Source of the DNA: Gemmataceae bacterium
GTDB taxonomy: Bacteria; Planctomycetota; Planctomycetia; Gemmatales; Gemmataceae
Direction of reading: 5' to 3'
DNA: 64,000 bases
Assembly (NCBI GenBank): GCA_009692005.1
Contig: SHZZ01000002.1
Span: 62,001-126,000, forward strand
The notes beneath the pieces are model-generated. The model saw nothing but the letters and a program-made list of their open reading frames with translations, did not search any database and had not been told where the DNA came from. The translations under genes and the position numbers were made by a program. Positions 3,374 through 46,977 of the stretch are shown one piece after another (within the stretch, counting starts at the first letter, position 1; each line of letters starts with the position of its first letter).

Positions 3374-4179
3374 TGGGAAAGTACTGGAATATTGGAAAAT
3401 TGGCGCTAAAAGAGCGGTTGGTTTACCGTGGAGACTTTTTCCTTAGCACGGTGCTGCGCTTTCTCCCCATGGTCACTTCGATTTTGCTTTGGAAGGCGGT
3501 GTTCGGTTCCGCGTCGCAGGACCAATTATCCGGTTTTTCCCTGAACCAAGTGATAGCCTACTTGCTGCTGGTCCATGTTAGCCGGATGTTCTCAAGCATG
3601 CCCGGATTGGCAGTGAATTTAGCCCGCGATATTCGTGAGGGGACGATCAAAAAATTTCTCATCCAGCCGCTTGATTTGTGCACTTTTCTGCTGTCTTCTC
3701 GTGTTGCTCACAAAATCGCCTACATCTCCACCAGCCTAATTCCTTACGCGGGGCTTTTTTTGGCATGCCTGAGTTTCTTTGACACTTTTCCCTCTGGCCT
3801 GGGATGGGTGTATTATTTCATTTCCCTGGCCCTCGGCTTTCTGGTTGGTTTTTATTTTGAGCTTTGCATTGGCATGATTGGTTTTTGGTTCCTGGAAGTC
3901 ACTTCCCTTTTGTATGTCGTAACTACCTTGAGTTTTTTCTTGTCTGGGCACCTGATTCCCTTGGATTTTCTGGACCAAACCGGCTGGGTAGAAGCGCTCA
4001 AGGCCCTGCCTTTTTCCTACATGGCATATTTTCCAGCGGCGTTGTTCTTGGGAAAAGTGCCGGAAGGGGAGATTGTAGGAAGACTCCTCCTGGGAATTTT
4101 TTGGGCCATTTTCTTTTGGGGCCTTTCCCGTGTGATTCTGCATCTGGGATTGAAACAGTACAGCGCTTTTGGGGCTTGA
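3373..4179 (+). CDS. ABC-2 permease, first subunit
   Basis: 268-residue membrane protein with about six hydrophobic segments, an N-terminal KLALKERLVYRGDFF stretch and an RDIREGTIKKFLIQPLD motif typical of the ABC2_membrane_6 (DUF990) permeases. It forms the transmembrane part of the exporter with the next gene, powered by the ATPase upstream. It starts within the stop codon of that ATPase gene and ends four bases before the next ATG. The exported substrate is unknown; relatives are annotated only as uncharacterised exporters. Confidence 0.85.
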   Translation: MGKYWNIGKLALKERLVYRGDFFLSTVLRFLPMVTSILLWKAVFGSASQDQLSGFSLNQVIAYLLLVHVSRMFSSMPGLAVNLARDIREGTIKKFLIQPLDLCTFLLSSRVAHKIAYISTSLIPYAGLFLACLSFFDTFPSGLGWVYYFISLALGFLVGFYFELCIGMIGFWFLEVTSLLYVVTTLSFFLSGHLIPLDFLDQTGWVEALKALPFSYMAYFPAALFLGKVPEGEIVGRLLLGIFWAIFFWGLSRVILHLGLKQYSAFGA

Positions 4180-4182
4180 TCC

Positions 4183-4980
4183 ATGAGATATTTGCGCCTT
4201 CTGGTTTCCTTTGCCAGAATCAGTTTGATGGGAGAGCTTTCCTTCCGGGTAAATTTCCTTCTCAAAATTCTGGTGGAAGTACTTTGGCTGGGAATTCTCC
4301 TGATTTTTTACAAAACCATTTTTTCCAAAAGTAGCTCTGTCAGCGGTTGGGATGAATATCAATACCTGTTTTTTCTCGGGGCCTATTACACCTTGGAAGG
4401 TTTTGTCGAAACCTTCTTCCTGGAAAATTGCGTGGAATTTTCAGAACTGGTTCGCTCGGGCAACCTCGATTTTTTTCTGTTGAAACCCATTGACGAGCAG
4501 TTTCTTTTAACCTTCAGGAAAATTGATTGGTCCACCGCGCCAAAAATCTTTCTGGGTCTGGGCCTCATGAGTATTGGTGCCATGGACTTGGGCATTACCT
4601 TTGAACCATTTCGGGTTTTCTGGTTCCTGGTTTTGCTTTTTATGGGGTTTTCCTTGGCTTACAGTTTCTTGTTGGTTTTAACCTCTCTGGGAGTGTGGCT
4701 GGTTCGCAACCAAAGCCTGATGGAAATCTGGTGGCTGTTTACCAATTTGATGCGCTATCCAAGGTCGATTTATCAGCCTTCTTGGGCCCTGCCAATTCGG
4801 GTGGTCTTTGGTGTGTTTATTCCCGCACTGTTGGCGGTTAGCGTTCCCGCGGAGTATTTCCTGGGCAAATCCGACTGGAGTGGAATTGCCCTTTTGTCTA
4901 TATCAACTGGGTTTTTTATTTGGTTAAGCCGTTGGTTTTTCTTTTATTCTCTCAGGCACTATCAAAGCGCCAGCAGTTAA
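4183..4980 (+). CDS. ABC-2 permease, second subunit
   Basis: 265-residue membrane protein with six predicted membrane segments, homologous in layout to the preceding permease: an N-terminal membrane-entry helix, then an ELVRSGNLDFFLLKPIDEQF motif matching the EGTIKKFLIQPLD region of its partner. This pair-plus-ATPase set (COG4586/4587/3694 type) forms a heterodimeric ABC-2 exporter. It is the last gene of the operon; the FHA gene beyond it is convergent with only a few bases between. Confidence 0.85.
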   Translation: MRYLRLLVSFARISLMGELSFRVNFLLKILVEVLWLGILLIFYKTIFSKSSSVSGWDEYQYLFFLGAYYTLEGFVETFFLENCVEFSELVRSGNLDFFLLKPIDEQFLLTFRKIDWSTAPKIFLGLGLMSIGAMDLGITFEPFRVFWFLVLLFMGFSLAYSFLLVLTSLGVWLVRNQSLMEIWWLFTNLMRYPRSIYQPSWALPIRVVFGVFIPALLAVSVPAEYFLGKSDWSGIALLSISTGFFIWLSRWFFFYSLRHYQSASS

Positions 4981-4984
4981 ATGG

Positions 4985-5302
4985 TCAGGAATGCCCATTT
5001 TTCGCGGCGGGTTCCTGAATATCCCAATGCAAAACATAGCGATGGTGGCCACCGATGCAAAGTTCCTGGCCCGGAAGAATTTTCCCTTCTATGACACTTT
5101 TGCCGTCGACTTTAACTCCATTCGTGCTGCCCAAGTCCCTCACCATGGCGTGGTCCTTGAAAAGGACTATGCAGCAGTGTTTGCGTGAAACTTTCCGGGA
5201 ATCAATGATAATGTCGCATTCTTCGTGACGGCCAATTAAAACAATAGGCTTTTCCAGGTTGAAACTGGCGCCTTCACTAAGTGCAACAAGTTGGATGGCC
5301 AT
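4985..5302 (-). CDS. FHA domain protein
   Basis: Small 105-residue protein that is essentially one forkhead-associated domain. Phosphothreonine-binding hallmarks are IGRHEECDIII, SRKHC and LGSTNG. An open frame continues upstream into carB, but that part has no FHA similarity and overlaps carB, so I start at the ATG at 5302 (MAIQLVALSEG); ATGs at 5317 and 5323 are alternatives. It lies downstream of carB on the same strand. FHA domains read Thr phosphorylation by Hanks-type kinases; the kinase at 48.4 kb is one potential partner, but that link is only inference. Confidence 0.8.
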   Translation of the reverse strand: MAIQLVALSEGASFNLEKPIVLIGRHEECDIIIDSRKVSRKHCCIVLFKDHAMVRDLGSTNGVKVDGKSVIEGKILPGQELCIGGHHRYVLHWDIQEPAAKNGHS

Positions 5303-5399
5303 GCAGGGAATCCCCATGGGCATACTAAGCCATAATGATGATAACATAACTACAGGGAAGGCGCAGGCGGGAATTACTAAATAGGGAAAAAAAACGAAG

Positions 5400-8300
5400 T
5401 TAGAAGCGGTTTTGAAGGGCAAGAACCGAACAATCGGAACTTCGCATTGCCAGGCAAGCCTCGGCTGCAGCATGGGCCGCAGCTAGGGTGGTTATGCAGG
5501 TGACTCCATGGGAGACGGCGTTTGCCCTGATTTTCCCTTCGTCCGTGCGGGACCCCCTGCCTACGGGGGTGTTGATGATCAAGGCGATTTGTCCGTTTTT
5601 CATGAGGTCAAGCAAGTTGGGCCGACCTTCCTGAATTTTGTTGATTTCGGAGACCTGAATATTTCCCTGACGCAAAATGCTGGCCGTCCCTCGGGTCGCC
5701 ACTAATTCATAACCCATGTCTTGAAACTTGCTTGCTATATGGATGATGTCACCTTTATCCCGGTCGGCCACCGAAATGAAGATTTTTCCGCTTTTCGGCA
5801 GGGCGCTGTTGGCGGCGAGTTGGCTCTTGGCAAAGGCCATGGCAAAAGTATCGTCGATCCCCATGACTTCGCCGGTCGATCGCATTTCAGGCCCAAGGAT
5901 GATATCGACACCTTGAAACTTGTTGAAAGGGAAGACGCTTTCTTTCACTGAAAAATACTTGGGTGTGATTTCCTGGGTGAAGCCCAGATCGCGCAACTTT
6001 TTCCCCACCATGACAAGCGCGGCCAGTTTTGCCAGCGATTTTCCAATCGCCTTGGATACGAAGGGGATTGTGCGGCTGGCGCGAGGATTGACCTCCAGCA
6101 CATGAATGTCCACAGGGGGCGCGATTTGTCCATCGGCTTGCGGAACCAATTTCCCTTCCGTCAATCCAGGCTTGTTGTGGTCCATGCGCAATCCGGTAAT
6201 GGCGAATTGCACATTCATCAGTCCGGACACTTTCAACTCACGGGCCATCGCGCATGTTTGTCGCTTGATCTCGTCCACGACTTCCCTGGGTAAGGAGTGC
6301 GGAGGCAATACACAGGCTGAATCACCTGAGTGGATTCCCGCTTCCTCAATATGCTGCATGACTCCGCCGACAACCGCGGTTTCTCCATCGAAGATGCAGT
6401 CGACATCTGCTTCAATGGCGGACTCAAGGAATTTATCCAGCAAGATGGGTTTTCCCGGCGAGACTGCCATGGCTTTGGTAACAGAGCGGACCAGCGTTTC
6501 CTCGTCGTAGACGATTTCCATTCCACGGCCGCCAAGCACATAGCTGGGCCGCACCAGAATCGGGTAGCCCACCTTTCTGGCAACATGAATGGCCTGTTGC
6601 AAATCGGTGGCTGTCCCGTTGGGCGGCTGAGAAAATCCCAGGCGGTTGACCATTCCTTGGAAACGCTCCCTATCCTCGGCGATGTCAATGCTATCCACGC
6701 TCGTTCCAATGATCGGCGCTCCGGCTGCTTCCAGGGCCCGGGCCAGGTTCAAGGGCGTTTGTCCGCCAAACTGCACGATCAAACCCTTGGGATTCATCCG
6801 CTCGCAGATGTTTAAAACATCTTCACAGGTCAAAGGTTCGAAAAAGAGATAGTCCGAGGTGTCGTAGTCGGTTGACACCGTTTCCGGGTTGGAGTTGACC
6901 ATGATGGTTTCGTAACCGGCTTCTTGCAGTGCAAAGGAAGCGTGGCAGCAACAATAATCAAATTCAATTCCCTGTCCGATCCGGTTGGGCCCGCCTCCCA
7001 GGATCATGATGCGGTCCTTGCCCCTGGAGGGCTCGGCTTCGTCTTCGGGTTCTAGGCGGCCATCGGGGTGGCGAAAGGGGGCTTCATAAGTGGAGTAATA
7101 GTACGGGGTGTAGGCCTCAAATTCGGCGGCGCAGGTGTCGACCCGTTTGAAGACGGGGTTGACCCCAAGGGCCTTTCTTTGCCGGCGGATTTCCATTTCG
7201 CTGGTTTGCCAAATGTGAGCTAACTGACGGTCCGAAAACCCCGACTGCTTGGCTTTAAAGAATAAGGCCTGGTCAGCCGCTGCCAGCGATTTCACTTGCC
7301 GAAGTTCCTTTTCCACTTCCAGAATTTCCTGGAGGTTCTTTAGGAACCAGGGATCGATGCGTGTGCGATCATGGATTTCTCCTATTGTCATGCCATCCAG
7401 CATGGCATAGCGGATATACCAGATGCGGTCGCAGTTTGGCGTCACCAGGTGGGAAATTATTTCCTCGCGGGAAGGCTGCCTTTGTGTTCCCCATAAGTCG
7501 CTACGGTCGCAGCCCAAGCCAAAGCTGCCGGTTTCCAATCCGCGTAGCGCCTTTTGCACCGATTCTTTAAAAGTCCGGCCGATGGCCATCGTTTCCCCGA
7601 CCGATTTCATTTGCGTGGTCAGTGTGGGATCGGCATCCGGGAATTTTTCAAAGGCCCAGCGGGGTATTTTGGTCACCACATAATCGATGGTGGGTTCAAA
7701 ACAAGCGGGGGTTTCCTTGGTGATGTCGTTACGCAATTCGTCCAGGCGGTAGCCCACGGCCAGCTTGGCAGCGATTTTGGCAATGGGAAATCCAGTCGCC
7801 TTGGAAGCAAGCGCGGAGGACCGCGAAACTCGGGGGTTCATTTCTATGGCCACCAGGTCCCCATTGGAGGGATTGACACCGAACTGAATGTTGCTTCCGC
7901 CCGTATCGACGCCGATTTCCCTGATAATCCTGATGGCGGCATCTCGCATGCGCTGATATTCCTTGTCGGTCAAGGTTTGCGCCGGCGCCACCGTAATGCT
8001 ATCGCCCGTGTGAACTCCCATGGGATCAAAATTCTCGATGCTGCAGACAATGACGACATTGTCTGCAGCATCGCGCATCACCTCGAGTTCAAATTCCTTC
8101 CAGCCAATGACTGATTGCTCAATGAGGACTTCACCAACGGGGCTCAGTTCCAATCCCCGGCTGATGAGTTCGTTGAATTCTTCGCGATTGTAAGCAATGC
8201 CTCCGCCGGTTCCCCCCATGGTGAAACTGGGCCGGAGGACGCAGGGCAAACCAACCCGGTCGCGAATTTCCTGGGCCTGGGCCAAATTTCTGGCCACTCC

Positions 8301-8738
8301 GCTGTCAGGCACATGAATGCCAATCCTAATCATGGCTTGCTTGAAAAGTGCTCGGTCTTCAGCCTTGGCAATGGCCTCGGGGCTGGCTCCGATCATCTCT
8401 ACGCCGTATTTGGCAAGGACCCCTTTTTGGTGAAGGGTCATGGCGGTGTTCAGAGCCGTTTGCCCTCCCACCGTGGGCAGAATGGAATCGGGCCTTTCAA
8501 TGGCGATGATCTTTTCAACGATTTCCCAGTGAATGGGCTCGATGTAAGTTTTGGTGGCGGTGTCGGGGTCGGTCATGATCGTGGCGGGGTTGGAATTAAC
8601 CAGGATCACCTCGTAGCCTTCTTCGCGCAGGGCCTTGCAAGCTTGCGTCCCGCTGTAATCAAATTCACACGCCTGTCCGATAATAATGGGCCCCGAGCCA
8701 ATAATTAGGATTTTTTTGATGTCAGTTCTTTTTGGCAT
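5400..8738 (-). CDS. carB: Carbamoyl-phosphate synthase large subunit
   Basis: 1112-residue CarB, close to the usual 1070-1100. It makes carbamoyl phosphate from ammonia (delivered by CarA), bicarbonate and two ATP, feeding pyrimidine and arginine synthesis. It shows the duplicated layout: N-terminal biotin-carboxylase-like half ([17 protein letters not shown]), second half ([17 protein letters not shown]), two ATP-grasp modules and a C-terminal MGS-like allosteric domain from about residue 960. The open frame runs 30 residues upstream, but family alignment places the start at [14 protein letters not shown] (8738). carA is about 15 kb away rather than adjacent. Confidence 0.97.
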
Positions 8739-43287: not shown

Positions 43288-43316
43288 TTGAAAATTTTCC
43301 CCAAGTAGGCTAATAT
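43288..43316 (+). promoter_or_regulatory. Near-consensus promoter for the JAB-E2-E1 operon
   Basis: TTGAAA, exactly 17 bases, then TATAAT-like TAATAT, upstream of the JAB gene and facing it. Transcription would begin near 43323, leaving a leader of about 53 bases. No other promoter-like element is visible between this gene and the divergent kinase. Confidence 0.55.
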
Positions 43317-43375
43317 GGTGTTGAGTTCGGCGAATAAGAAATTAAAGGCTTTGCCATGGCTGGGAATATTAGCAA

Positions 43376-44353
43376 ATGATCTACACCGATAAAGAACAGA
43401 GCATGGAAAAAGAATCCGCCTCCGGATGGATCATGAAAAAGGTCCGTGGGTTGGTTCAAGAATTAAACCGGTTGGTTGCCTCCACTGGCGGGCAAACAGC
43501 CATTCAAGGGCCGATTCCCGTCTATTTGCCCCTGAAAAAAGCCCTGCTGAGTTCTGGCGTTGGTGAAACCCTGGTGAATGGTTTCAAAAATCACCTGTCG
43601 CAAGAACGGGGTGAAGAAGAAACCGGCTGGGTTCTTCTGGGGTACCGTGAAAGTACCAAGGCTGTGGTCTTGGCGGCGTTGCCGGCGGGGGAATTCCGCG
43701 AATCCAGTTCCACCCATGTTCGTTTTAACTCTCAGGCTCAGGAAATTGCCGCCCGGCTAGTTCGACAAAAAGACCAGCGCCTTGTTGTCCTTGGAGTTGT
43801 TCACACGCACCCCGGTTCCATGCGGCATCCTTCCTCGGGCGATTATCGGGGCGATATTAGTTGGGTGGAACATCTGGCTGGGAAGGAAGGCATCTTTGCC
43901 ATAGGCACCGCCGACGGTCCTGTTAATTGTTCCCCCTTTGCCAGCAAAACTGGGCAAAATGCTTTCGTCATGGGCGGGGTCCGTTTCACCTGGTATTCGC
44001 TGGCATCGAAGGAGTCAAATTACAAACCGCTGCCTTTTGTTTGGTCGCTGGCCCCGGACTTGGCTCAACCCTGGCATGCGGCCTGGGGCTTGCTGGAAAA
44101 AAACTCCAAGGAAATCAACCGGATTTTATCGGGTCAAAATGGCGCCCGGTGTTTTTCCTCAGTGTTCCAGGGAGAGCCCGTGATAACTCTTGAGGTTCCC
44201 GCTGGCGATGCGGACACAAAGATTCAAGCGGTACTGGGGGCAGGAAATATCCGGTTCTTCGTTTCTCGGCGCGGGGAAATGATGGCAGTCGATTTGCAAG
44301 AAAACAAGCTGGATCGGGGCTTGTTCATGGTCTTGGCAGAATTGTCCAAGTAA
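43376..44353 (+). CDS. JAMM/JAB domain isopeptidase-like protein
   Basis: 325 residues. The JAMM metalloprotease motif is intact: Glu82 (EEETGW), then VVHTHPGS with His143 and His145, and Asp156 in SSGD, giving HxHx10D with 10 residues between. N-terminal 70 residues and the C-terminal 115 residues (from about 210) are extra; the latter has no recognised fold. JAB proteins of prokaryotic ubiquitin-like systems remove or process the modifier. Start: ATG 43376, with an in-frame alternative at 43403. First gene of a tight operon with E2- and E1-like genes. Confidence 0.85.
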   Translation: MIYTDKEQSMEKESASGWIMKKVRGLVQELNRLVASTGGQTAIQGPIPVYLPLKKALLSSGVGETLVNGFKNHLSQERGEEETGWVLLGYRESTKAVVLAALPAGEFRESSSTHVRFNSQAQEIAARLVRQKDQRLVVLGVVHTHPGSMRHPSSGDYRGDISWVEHLAGKEGIFAIGTADGPVNCSPFASKTGQNAFVMGGVRFTWYSLASKESNYKPLPFVWSLAPDLAQPWHAAWGLLEKNSKEINRILSGQNGARCFSSVFQGEPVITLEVPAGDADTKIQAVLGAGNIRFFVSRRGEMMAVDLQENKLDRGLFMVLAELSK

Positions 44354-44372
44354 CTTTTTTAGGGAGGCTGGC

Positions 44373-44561
44373 ATGGACTTCAGACCTTTAAACGACGAAG
44401 AGCGTAAAAACCTGTACGAAGCGATCCGGAATAATTCCGAGTCGGGCACCCCGATCGGAATCAACCCCAAGGATACTTCCTTCACCAATAAAGCCCCTGC
44501 CGATACCGAGCAAGGGGTTATTGATGCTATTCGCTCGGTTCCTTGCCATTACGGGCGATAA
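44373..44561 (+). CDS. 62-residue protein ending in Gly-Arg, candidate partner or modifier
   Basis: A real gene by its AGGGAGG ribosome site (7 bases before ATG) and its one-base overlap with the E2 gene (TAATG). It starts MDFRPLNDEERKNLYEAI, likely helical, has a flexible middle (about residues 22-45, with Pro/Asn/Thr) and ends AIRSVPCHYGR. The terminal Gly-Arg would fit a precursor needing one residue removed, but the sequence does not look clearly like a ubiquitin-fold beta-grasp. Function unassigned; position in the operon suggests it belongs to the pathway. Confidence 0.7.
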   Translation: MDFRPLNDEERKNLYEAIRNNSESGTPIGINPKDTSFTNKAPADTEQGVIDAIRSVPCHYGR

Positions 44562-45004
44562 TGGGCCAGGTCATTCCCGCACTGCTTCGGGATGAGAGAA
44601 CGAAGCAGCGTCTGTTGCGTGTTGAGATCCCAATAATTGAGCAATACAATCGGGATCGCGACAAGGAATACAAGATCCGGGTGGAAACTACCCGTCAAGG
44701 TCTTTCCCTGAACTACCTCCTCAAACCGGGACACAATGATTATCAGGTGCGAACCGATTTGCTGGAAGGGTACCCATTAATCCCGCCGGAAACCCGGGTC
44801 CAGACGCCCTTGGATTTTCCATGCCCGCACCTCTTGCCCGGTCAACTGGTTTGCCTTTGGAGGCAAGGGAGTGACCGCCAGGCAAACCGCTGGGACCCCT
44901 CTACCTTCACTTGCATATTTGCAGTTCTTGCGGCATGGCGCTGGCTGGCTTGTTACGAACTATGGAAACAAACTGGGGAATGGCCGCTGCCGGAGGCCCG
45001 ATAA
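44561..45004 (+). CDS. E2-like ubiquitin-conjugating-type protein
   Basis: 147 residues. The UBC fold's core is readable: YPLIPPE (residues 71-77) matches the YPxxPP strand of E2s, CPH at 88-90 precedes LPGQLVCLW, where Cys98 is at the catalytic cysteine position, and RWDPS near 110-114 with a helical end (FAVLAAWRWLACYELW) matches the conserved Trp-Pro and following helix. The classical HPN triad is not kept, as usual in bacterial E2s. Start: the ATG overlapping the previous stop; a TTG at 44543 would extend it. It would carry a modifier as a thioester. Confidence 0.83.
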   Translation: MGQVIPALLRDERTKQRLLRVEIPIIEQYNRDRDKEYKIRVETTRQGLSLNYLLKPGHNDYQVRTDLLEGYPLIPPETRVQTPLDFPCPHLLPGQLVCLWRQGSDRQANRWDPSTFTCIFAVLAAWRWLACYELWKQTGEWPLPEAR

Positions 45005-45007
45005 ACC

Positions 45008-45802
45008 ATGGCGAAAGTGATTCAAATCGGTCTGGGTAGCGGAGGAATGGCAGTCCTGGATATGCTTTTGCGGTTTCCGGGCCTGGATTCTCTGGCCTTG
45101 ATTGAACCGGATATTCTGGAAACCCATAACCTGGAAAGGCATTTATTCACCTCACAAGCCGTGGGGAAACCAAAACTGGATACTGCCCTGGAATGGGTTC
45201 GCACCCGCCGAAAGGATATTGAAGTTCAAGGATTTCCCTGCTGGTTGGAAGATGCGAATTATCGGAATGACCTGGAAAAGGTTATGGATGGATGCGCAGC
45301 CGGAATTTGCGCCGTGGACAACGACAATGCCAAGTACCTCTGGTGCTCCATGATGCGGAAACACAAGATTCCCTGGACTCTGGGTGAAGTGTTGAGCGGT
45401 GGCATCGGGGGTTTTGTCCATGTGGTGTCTCCTGACGGCCCGTGTTATGGCTGTATTTCCTCGTATTTGAAAAGGGAAAACACAGCATCGGCCAACAAAA
45501 AACCGGATTACAGCAATCCAGAAGGAATGGTTAAGGAAGCGCGGATTCCAGCCTCCTTTGCGGCCATCAACACCATTGCCTCCTTGCATGCACTGGGCAC
45601 CTTGGAACTCCTGCAAGGTCGGCCCGATTACGGGAGCTTTTTATTTCCCATGGAGAAAATCGACGGAGTCTTTCGAGAGAAATGGCAGGCCACCCGGTTG
45701 GGGGTTGCCAAGAACCCTGGGTGCCTGTTCTGCGGAATTCCTCCTGGTGATATTCCCGATGCGGATGCCCAATTACAGAGAAAACTGGCAGAGCTTTCCT
45801 GA
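45008..45802 (+). CDS. ThiF/E1-like adenylating enzyme
   Basis: 264 residues with a Rossmann-type nucleotide loop GLGSGG (8-13), the D/N/R block LIEPDILETHNLERHLF (Arg44 as adenylation finger), GKPKLD, Asp104 in AVDNDNA and a four-Cys zinc site (CYGC 146-149, CLFC 239-242). The segment that carries the catalytic Cys in MoeB/ThiF (as SCAEAG) reads ARIPASFAAINT, so no Cys is there. It would adenylate the C-terminus of a modifier. Three bases separate it from the E2 gene. Confidence 0.88.
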   Translation: MAKVIQIGLGSGGMAVLDMLLRFPGLDSLALIEPDILETHNLERHLFTSQAVGKPKLDTALEWVRTRRKDIEVQGFPCWLEDANYRNDLEKVMDGCAAGICAVDNDNAKYLWCSMMRKHKIPWTLGEVLSGGIGGFVHVVSPDGPCYGCISSYLKRENTASANKKPDYSNPEGMVKEARIPASFAAINTIASLHALGTLELLQGRPDYGSFLFPMEKIDGVFREKWQATRLGVAKNPGCLFCGIPPGDIPDADAQLQRKLAELS

Positions 45803-45813
45803 GTGAATTCCGC

Positions 45814-46977
45814 ATGAATAACAAACAGTCCATTACCATTGGTTATGAGATCCAGGGCTTGCGGATTGACCGGGCCCTGATTCCCTGGAATGCGGATTCT
45901 CTCTTGGTTGAAATGCTGATCCGTTTTCCGCCAAAAAGCCCATGCGCTCCCAAGGATTTCTTGATCACCATGGGCGATGACGACCCCTTGATTGGCAATG
46001 AGATTCAAATCACTTCCGAAGGGGAATTTAATTCAGGGAAAGTCCTCTTCCGTGCGGATCCTCCCGTGAAAAATGTCACTGCCAAGGTGTACATCAAAAA
46101 GAAGTTGCGCCATGAAATGGCCATTCCTTTCCTGTCTCGCGAGAAATTCCTGAAAGGGCTGAGCTTTAATCAGGCTTCATTGTCATGCCTTTACGACCAA
46201 GGGGCGGTTGCCTGCAAGAGTTATTACCCCGCCGGGATTAGAAATATGTCCATTGGCGGAATAATTAAATCTGTCCATGGTTTTGAGCCCTTGCTCGGCA
46301 CTACTCTGGCCTTGGCCCTCACCATGGGGAAAAACAAAAAAATCCTGCCATGGACACCCAACATACCTCAGGCCGGCGAGGCGATGATTCCACTAACCAT
46401 TCCTCTGGGAACTTTTCCCAGAAAAATGGGGGTGCTCGAGTCTTCCCTTCTGGTGGATGGGGAAGAGATTGGCGGCGGAAAATTCCAGGGCTTATCCACT
46501 CCGGAGTTTCTGCGAACCATCGAAATTCTGCGGGCTGGGTTTGTCGTGTGGAATGAAAATAATATGCCTCACCTTTGGGACAACCTTGATTCCTTGAAAG
46601 CAGGCCACCGCTTTGGCCCAACCTTCTGGTTGCACAGCGACCTACAGGATTGCGTGGGGCTTGCGGATGGCAAGATAAATGGTTATTTGCACGGGTCTGT
46701 CCAGCCAATGACCCTTTGGGAAGGGAAAATACCCATCACACATGTCCCCAGGCTATTTTCCCCTCTTAGCATGGCATCCACCCATTTTCAGGAATTGAAG
46801 CTTTTTGAATTAGTAATCGCCCGCCATCCCGTTAGCAGGATTTCCCTCGCTTCCAAACCCAAGGCAATATTTACCAACGAAGGAACCATTGCCTCCCCTG
46901 TATCCATGGACAGCGAATCTCCCATCAGTAACAAGGATTTGCTGAAAAAATTAAACAGCCTGGCCAATCCCAATTAG
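45814..46977 (+). CDS. Uncharacterised protein of the JAB-E2-E1 operon
   Basis: 387 residues, no signal peptide and no family I recognise. Residues 1-110 look beta-rich (ITIGYEIQGL, LLVEMLIRFPP, KVLFRADPPVKNVTAKVYI); the middle contains alternating small/hydrophobic runs (LGTTLALALTMG) and a Trp/Asn-rich stretch (VVWNENNMPHLWDNL). It starts 11 bases after the E1 gene, so it is in the same transcript. It could be the target, the adapter or an unusual modifier carrier. It converges on the M50 protease gene. Confidence 0.75.
   Translation: MNNKQSITIGYEIQGLRIDRALIPWNADSLLVEMLIRFPPKSPCAPKDFLITMGDDDPLIGNEIQITSEGEFNSGKVLFRADPPVKNVTAKVYIKKKLRHEMAIPFLSREKFLKGLSFNQASLSCLYDQGAVACKSYYPAGIRNMSIGGIIKSVHGFEPLLGTTLALALTMGKNKKILPWTPNIPQAGEAMIPLTIPLGTFPRKMGVLESSLLVDGEEIGGGKFQGLSTPEFLRTIEILRAGFVVWNENNMPHLWDNLDSLKAGHRFGPTFWLHSDLQDCVGLADGKINGYLHGSVQPMTLWEGKIPITHVPRLFSPLSMASTHFQELKLFELVIARHPVSRISLASKPKAIFTNEGTIASPVSMDSESPISNKDLLKKLNSLANPN

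Follow-up and report, generated by a model that had tools for sequence, protein, structure and literature searches.

A conserved Gemmatales operon proposed to encode a ubiquitin-like conjugation pathway, with a small protein as its leading modifier candidate

A five-gene operon of Gemmatales encodes, as judged from the protein sequences, activation, carriage and removal parts for a protein tag, all of which are present and conserved. We propose, with a probability of about one half, that it specifies a vertically inherited ubiquitin-like conjugation pathway that uses a small non-beta-grasp protein, S62, as its modifier. The operon lies in a 64,000-nucleotide stretch of DNA from a Gemmataceae bacterium (GenBank assembly GCA_009692005.1, contig SHZZ01000002.1, positions 62,001 to 126,000), which is referred to here as the window. 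It occupies positions 43376-46977 of the plus strand, in the order JAB-S62-E2-E1-P387.

43288..43316, plus strand: promoter-like TTGAAA-N17-TAATAT, weak (9/12 matches)
43376..44353, plus strand: JAB, a JAMM/Prok-JAB metalloprotease of 325 aa with a conserved C-terminal region (Pfam PF14464, E = 2e-7)
44373..44561, plus strand: S62, a conserved small protein of 62 aa with the tail SVPCHY-GR; AGGGAGG lies upstream of its ATG
44561..45004, plus strand: E2-like (UBC) protein of 147 aa with Cys98 and His90 (PADLOC E2 models to 2e-7)
45008..45802, plus strand: ThiF-type E1 of 264 aa (Pfam ThiF, E = 7e-21; nearest PDB chains MccB and MoeB)
45814..46977, plus strand: P387, the fifth gene, 387 aa, with three predicted Ig/FN3-like beta-sandwich domains and a C-terminal helix

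Operon organization and inheritance

The genes are separated by gaps of 19, -1, 3 and 11 bases; these gaps, the five genes, their strand and their coordinates all agree with the original prediction made from the sequence alone. The E2 gene starts at ATG 44561, a position supported by homologues, which favour it over the TTG at 44543. The promoter that had been assigned to the operon exists as a site, but such matches occur at chance frequency (3 found versus 3.0 expected from shuffled sequence). The neighbouring genes, encoding PfkB, an M50 peptidase, CoaD and a kinase, are ordinary and common to few loci only. Besides the operon genes themselves, no gene, beta-grasp or other, is conserved across loci within 16 kb around the operon. 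Biosynthetic or export genes were not found near it, and the earlier statement that defence genes are absent nearby holds for the region beside the operon.

A scan of GTDB species contigs found the operon to recur across Gemmatales, at 64 loci in many genera, with its order conserved. Nearly all of these loci are labelled Planctomycetota, and they include Gemmata sp. IIL30, Limnoglobus roseus and Zavarzinella formosa. S62 adjoins E2 at every one of the 64 loci. A search with E2 matched 71 of 149 relatives, in 33 of 77 genera, with one copy each; the match in one genome (G006), which has no S62, is marginal (28% identity). Apart from one marginal E2 match, S62 and E2 occur in the same 67 of the 95 family genomes surveyed, as compared by hand, with three of the 67 picked up by the S62 search but not by the E2 search. 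E1 or JAB is located elsewhere in the genome in some genera, and the S62-E2 pairing persists even there.

In a tree of E2 and S62, all multi-member genera are monophyletic, except that g8 is nested in g17, which fits vertical descent. The system is housekeeping-like, being chromosomal, inherited by descent, present in single copy and free of adjacent defence genes. The suggestion that it represents a separate variant is upheld, and the variant is conserved in one order. Its description as possibly a housekeeping system of planctomycetes proved too broad in one respect: the housekeeping-like character stands, but close homologues are confined to Gemmatales, with few scattered relatives elsewhere in the phylum.

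The enzymes of the operon

JAB belongs to the Prok-JAB/JAMM family. Its PF14464 match lies above the curated cut-off, and its metal site, a glutamate plus HxHx7Sx2D (E81/E82, H143-x-H145-x7-S153-x2-D156), is complete and invariant or nearly so across homologues, in line with the intact Glu/HxHx10D read from the sequence at the outset. By its sequence, it is a candidate deconjugase or tail-processing enzyme. Within Gemmatales, 52 of 102 genomes have JAB. It is dispensable, since Gemmata and some other lineages have lost it while retaining S62, E2 and E1. The JAB-less genomes still encode a different Prok-JAB protein elsewhere.

E2 of the window has no Pfam match, though the PADLOC E2 models match it over the segment with the active-site Cys, and its assignment as an E2 with YPxxPP and Cys98 is further supported by conservation. 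An alignment shows that YP71-72, P76, H90, C98 and W111 are kept in very distant homologues, and H90 and C98 are present in every family compared. With its active-site Cys, upstream His, YPxxPP and HMM matches, the protein is assigned to the E2/UBC family. A distant homologue from another planctomycete (L099) matches PF00179 at 1e-4, below that model's cut-off. No convincing match came from a PDB profile search with E2. Finding an E2 in planctomycetes is not in itself new, since E2-like proteins in this phylum were reported in 2013 by Arcas et al., as cited in PMC8567305 and PMC5493775.

Scans of viral, phage and plasmid sequences with the E2 proteins gave no close relative, with the exception of a Mesorhizobium plasmid system, matched by the L099-type E2, and weak CBASS-type matches. 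Four other E2 matches (L139-L142) were rejected as members of the same system; they adjoin a nucleotidyltransferase gene, in two cases also patatin genes, and are CBASS-like.

E1 carries GxGxxG, the adenylation residues R44, K56 and D104, and a GGIGG motif. Together with the family HMM, these place it among the ThiF/E1 adenylating enzymes, as had been proposed from GxGxxG, Arg44, Asp104 and the CxxC pairs. Its four zinc cysteines (146, 149, 239 and 242, the last two forming the C-terminal pair) are all invariant. E1 departs from MoeB/ThiF in the GGIGG region and in the crossover loop. The crossover-loop cysteine that forms the thioester in MoeB/Uba-type enzymes is absent from E1 and from every homologue examined; the segment matching the MoeB cysteine position reads V-x-E-A/T-x-I-P-A-S. 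Bub E1s are likewise not known to carry a catalytic cysteine.

The small protein S62

S62 has no family match in Pfam, NCBIfam, PADLOC or PHROGs. It is under strong purifying selection, with dN/dS of 0.014-0.107 in 11 of 12 informative pairs, the exception being one near-identical pair. Conservation extends over the full length, unlike in most precursor peptides, and is as strong at the N-terminus (MDFRPL) as at the C-terminus; the C-terminus of E2 is as fixed as either end.

The AF2 model of S62, of moderate confidence (pLDDT 74, pTM 0.43), consists of a helix (residues 8-24), a small hairpin, a second helix (residues 46-55) and a tail. S62 is thus predicted not to be a beta-grasp protein. 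The model has no structural match with Foldseek, and no PDB or ubiquitin-fold match was found, which bears out the original remark that the 62-residue protein lacks a clear ubiquitin fold. The operon had also been described as being without an obvious modifier. S62 is indeed not predicted to have a ubiquitin fold, but this description undersold the small reading frame, whose linkage to E2 is the tightest of any gene and which is strongly conserved. We regard S62 as the leading modifier candidate.

The tail, an invariant SVP(C/V/S/T)HY that is sometimes extended, is among the most conserved parts of S62. In 51 of 61 distinct homologues the stop follows exactly after Tyr60 (SVPCHY, SVPVHY, SVPSHY or SVPTHY). 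The others are extended by GR (in the window), KL, A, G, AG, AGI, AGV or AVVSGQ, so that Gemmatales extensions past HY (HYGR, HYG, HYA, HYAG, HYAGI, HYAGV, HYAVVSGQ) start with G or A, KL being the sole exception. In 58 of the 61, the 16 residues that end with HY include no Gly. Set against the exposed, conjugated C-terminal Gly that would define a modifier, the window protein has the tail HYGR, while most relatives end in HY.

All 12 mapped genomes with an extended tail have JAB, which in three of them (G024, G096 and G097) lies away from the S62 locus, and all 13 mapped JAB-less genomes have an S62 ending at Tyr. This link is weak (Fisher p = 0.05, uncorrected for shared ancestry and drawn from few independent events). 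JAB loss and tail length require 4 and 3 parsimony changes on the tree, respectively, and the association is no more than suggestive.

The fifth protein, P387

P387 has no family match in Pfam, NCBIfam, PADLOC or PHROGs, and a PDB profile search with it gave nothing convincing. Its AF2 model (pLDDT 88) shows consecutive beta-sandwich domains followed by the C-terminal helix. Foldseek and VIA matches of the model are tandem Ig/FN3 proteins, although the nearest VIA-align matches (Z about 9, rmsd 12-15) have only the tandem Ig/FN3-like layout in common with it. Downstream of E1, 48 of the 64 loci encode a homologue, 17-35% identical to the window protein in the alignment. Among the remainder, several contigs stop short of this point, and at some loci E1 lies away from the operon. 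P387 is a candidate for a subunit that recruits targets or assembles the complex.

Relatives outside Gemmatales

A planctomycete of another family (L098) has the same order, JAB-small protein-E2-E1, with E2 at positions 1381-1797. Its small protein, of 65 aa and ending in HYAGR, is detectably homologous to S62 by sequence, with none of 2000 shuffles scoring as high against the S62 profile. Small proteins occupy the equivalent place at three further loci: one of 74 aa ending in RHGG before E2/E1 (L102), one of 60 aa ending in LGGEYYIEG in the planctomycete L099, and one of 57 aa ending in LGGEY on the Mesorhizobium plasmid. Compared with 2000 shuffles, these proteins resemble S62 at or close to chance level, and they serve as contextual support only. 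In the E2 of L102 (positions 484-978), about 20 extra residues are inserted immediately ahead of the catalytic Cys.

The plasmid locus (L130; Mesorhizobium sp. AR10, NZ_CP080523.1, positions 3819-8378) encodes, one after another, the 57-aa protein, E2, a Phd-type protein, ThiF, JAB, a ComEC-type MBL protein and a patatin phospholipase; the Phd-type protein corresponds to an E2-like relative in L099. We consider the locus defence-like and related to the 6A-MBL type; the small gene ahead of its E2 is undescribed. Like the Gemmatales operon, it and L099 have a protein of about 60 aa directly before E2. In both, a second E2-like or Phd-type protein and ThiF come next, with JAB in L130. L130 differs in its additional MBL-fold protein and patatin phospholipase.

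Further arrangements were seen in other planctomycetes. In two (L137, positions 1108-1821; L138, positions 1486-2139), an E2-domain protein directly follows a Cas2-like gene and has an N-terminal extension with a helix and an NGEL/DGEL hairpin. This stretch resembles the helix-hairpin of the small proteins from L099 and Mesorhizobium, with 7-11 of 2000 shuffles reaching its score, and shows no similarity to S62 itself. A 69-aa protein ending in WVFG, in which similarity to S62 was not detected, directly precedes E2 and a JAB-containing protein in another planctomycete (L143, positions 1164-2774). Unlike the S62 operon, a locus in a planctomycete of the same class (L145, positions 1047-2241) pairs a likely genuine beta-grasp ubiquitin-like protein with a neighbouring E2 and a zinc-finger protein.

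Comparison with known systems

The operon does not fit the definitions of Bil, CBASS type II, Iyer type 6d or Pup. Bil had been cited correctly as a bacterial E1-E2-JAB set, and BilABCD has the same four parts, a small modifier gene, E2, JAB and E1 (PMC11354881). However, Bil has a double beta-grasp protein as BilA, one inactive and one active adenylation domain together with a Cys domain in BilD, and a CEHH motif in BilB (PMC11354881), whereas S62 is 62 aa long, the 264-aa E1 has a single adenylation domain without that Cys, and no Glu/His stands at the required spacing after Cys98 of E2.

In CBASS type II, E1, E2 and JAB activities also have a non-beta-grasp protein as their substrate and work at its C-terminus, as proposed here: Cap2 conjugates cGAS through a C-terminal Gly/Ala, and conjugation was lost when cGAS ended in Trp, Val, Arg or Ser (PMC10097602). 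In Cap2, E1 and E2 are fused, and a CD-NTase with a C-terminal Gly/Ala is needed; in Gemmatales E1 and E2 are separate genes, no cyclase gene is among the conserved neighbours, and the operon is without effector and mobile context.

The types 6a-6e of Iyer 2006 are likewise E1-E2-JAB neighbourhoods with extra conserved proteins, and type 6d also has a small protein beside E1-E2-JAB (PMC1779556). That protein is a beta-grasp with a C-terminal Gly, accompanied by an E2 without the conserved His and a JAB-N domain (PMC1779556), whereas S62 is modelled as non-beta-grasp and its E2 keeps His90. Neither P387 nor S62 matches any protein described there. Pup/UBact resembles S62 as a small (about 60 aa) non-beta-grasp candidate modifier in bacteria, but Pup uses PafA/Dop rather than E1/E2/JAB (PMC7947786). 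No earlier description of an S62/P387 operon was found in the literature covered, which included the papers cited here by PMC number.

Putative function

Being the only other universal component, S62 should be either the tag or an adaptor needed by E1/E2. In the pathway that we propose, JAB would trim residues beyond the tail where these are present, with the window S62 probably cut as PCHYG/R or PCHY/GR (slash, cleavage). E1 would adenylate the S62 C-terminus and pass S62 directly to Cys98 of E2, without a catalytic cysteine of its own. E2 would attach S62 to target amines, P387 may recruit targets or assemble the complex, and JAB would remove S62.

The modifier reading is favoured by the position of S62, which directly precedes E2, adjoins it at every locus and co-occurs with it also in genomes that lack JAB or carry E1 at another place, as well as by its strong purifying selection and the conservation of its tail. 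It is also favoured by Gly/Ala-led tails in many lineages including the window, with JAB in all 12 mapped genomes that have extended tails, by the HYAGR end and shared order of L098, by the RHGG end of L102 and by the precedent of CBASS, whose substrate is not beta-grasp (PMC10097602). Several observations count against it. Most S62 proteins end in Tyr, and Trp, Val, Arg or Ser ends abolished cGAS conjugation (PMC10097602); the stretch up to HY mostly lacks Gly; the tail-JAB link is weak; homology of the L102, L099 and Mesorhizobium proteins to S62 is statistically unsupported; the conserved N-terminus is also expected of an adaptor, and the E2 C-terminus is equally fixed; and the S62 model is of moderate confidence only.

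Some of these observations lend weight to an explanation that we consider less likely, though it is the strongest of the alternatives, namely that S62 is an obligatory adaptor or activator, not itself conjugated, which links E1 with E2 or holds the true substrate in place while another protein is conjugated. Conservation at both ends and the Tyr ends without Gly would suit such a role, as would the N-terminal stretch of the L137/L138 E2 proteins, which looks as if it acted in cis with E2. However, that stretch is not similar to S62 itself, and the recurring Gly/Ala-led tails and the GG end of L102 would be left unexplained.

It is quite improbable that the modifier is a separate beta-grasp protein, such as a ThiS/MoaD paralogue, encoded elsewhere, with S62 in another role. 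E1 is ThiF/MoeB-like, and ThiS/MoaD-type beta-grasp proteins exist in most genomes, which favours this explanation; S62 is nevertheless universal, no other gene is conserved across the loci in the 16 kb around the operon, and E1 differs from MoeB/ThiF in the two regions noted above. An MccB-like peptide or metabolite modification, in which E1 would adenylate the S62 C-terminus to yield a small product and E2 would be a non-canonical transferase, has very little chance of being correct: by sequence, E1 matches MccB best among PDB entries, and S62 is a small conserved precursor-like gene, but Cys98 and the JAMM residues are invariant, biosynthetic and export genes are absent nearby and S62 is conserved over its full length.

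S62 may be the first of a new kind of modifier, a claim that we make tentatively and at slightly less than even odds. It would be a non-beta-grasp protein of about 60 residues that an E1 lacking a catalytic cysteine activates, an E2 carries and a JAMM protease takes off again, a housekeeping tag of one order whose ancestral H-Y-(A)-G tail would have been cut to a C-terminal Tyr in crown lineages.

Implications

E1-E2 pathways are known to act on beta-grasp proteins, cGAS in CBASS being a striking exception. A small non-beta-grasp partner inseparable from E2 would, if the proposal is true, mean that the ubiquitin enzyme relay can form around an unrelated tag. The setting is chromosomal and apparently non-defence, in bacteria often discussed for their eukaryote-like features. 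Cultured hosts exist (Limnoglobus roseus, Zavarzinella formosa and Gemmata strains), and the pathway is directly testable with three small proteins and ATP.
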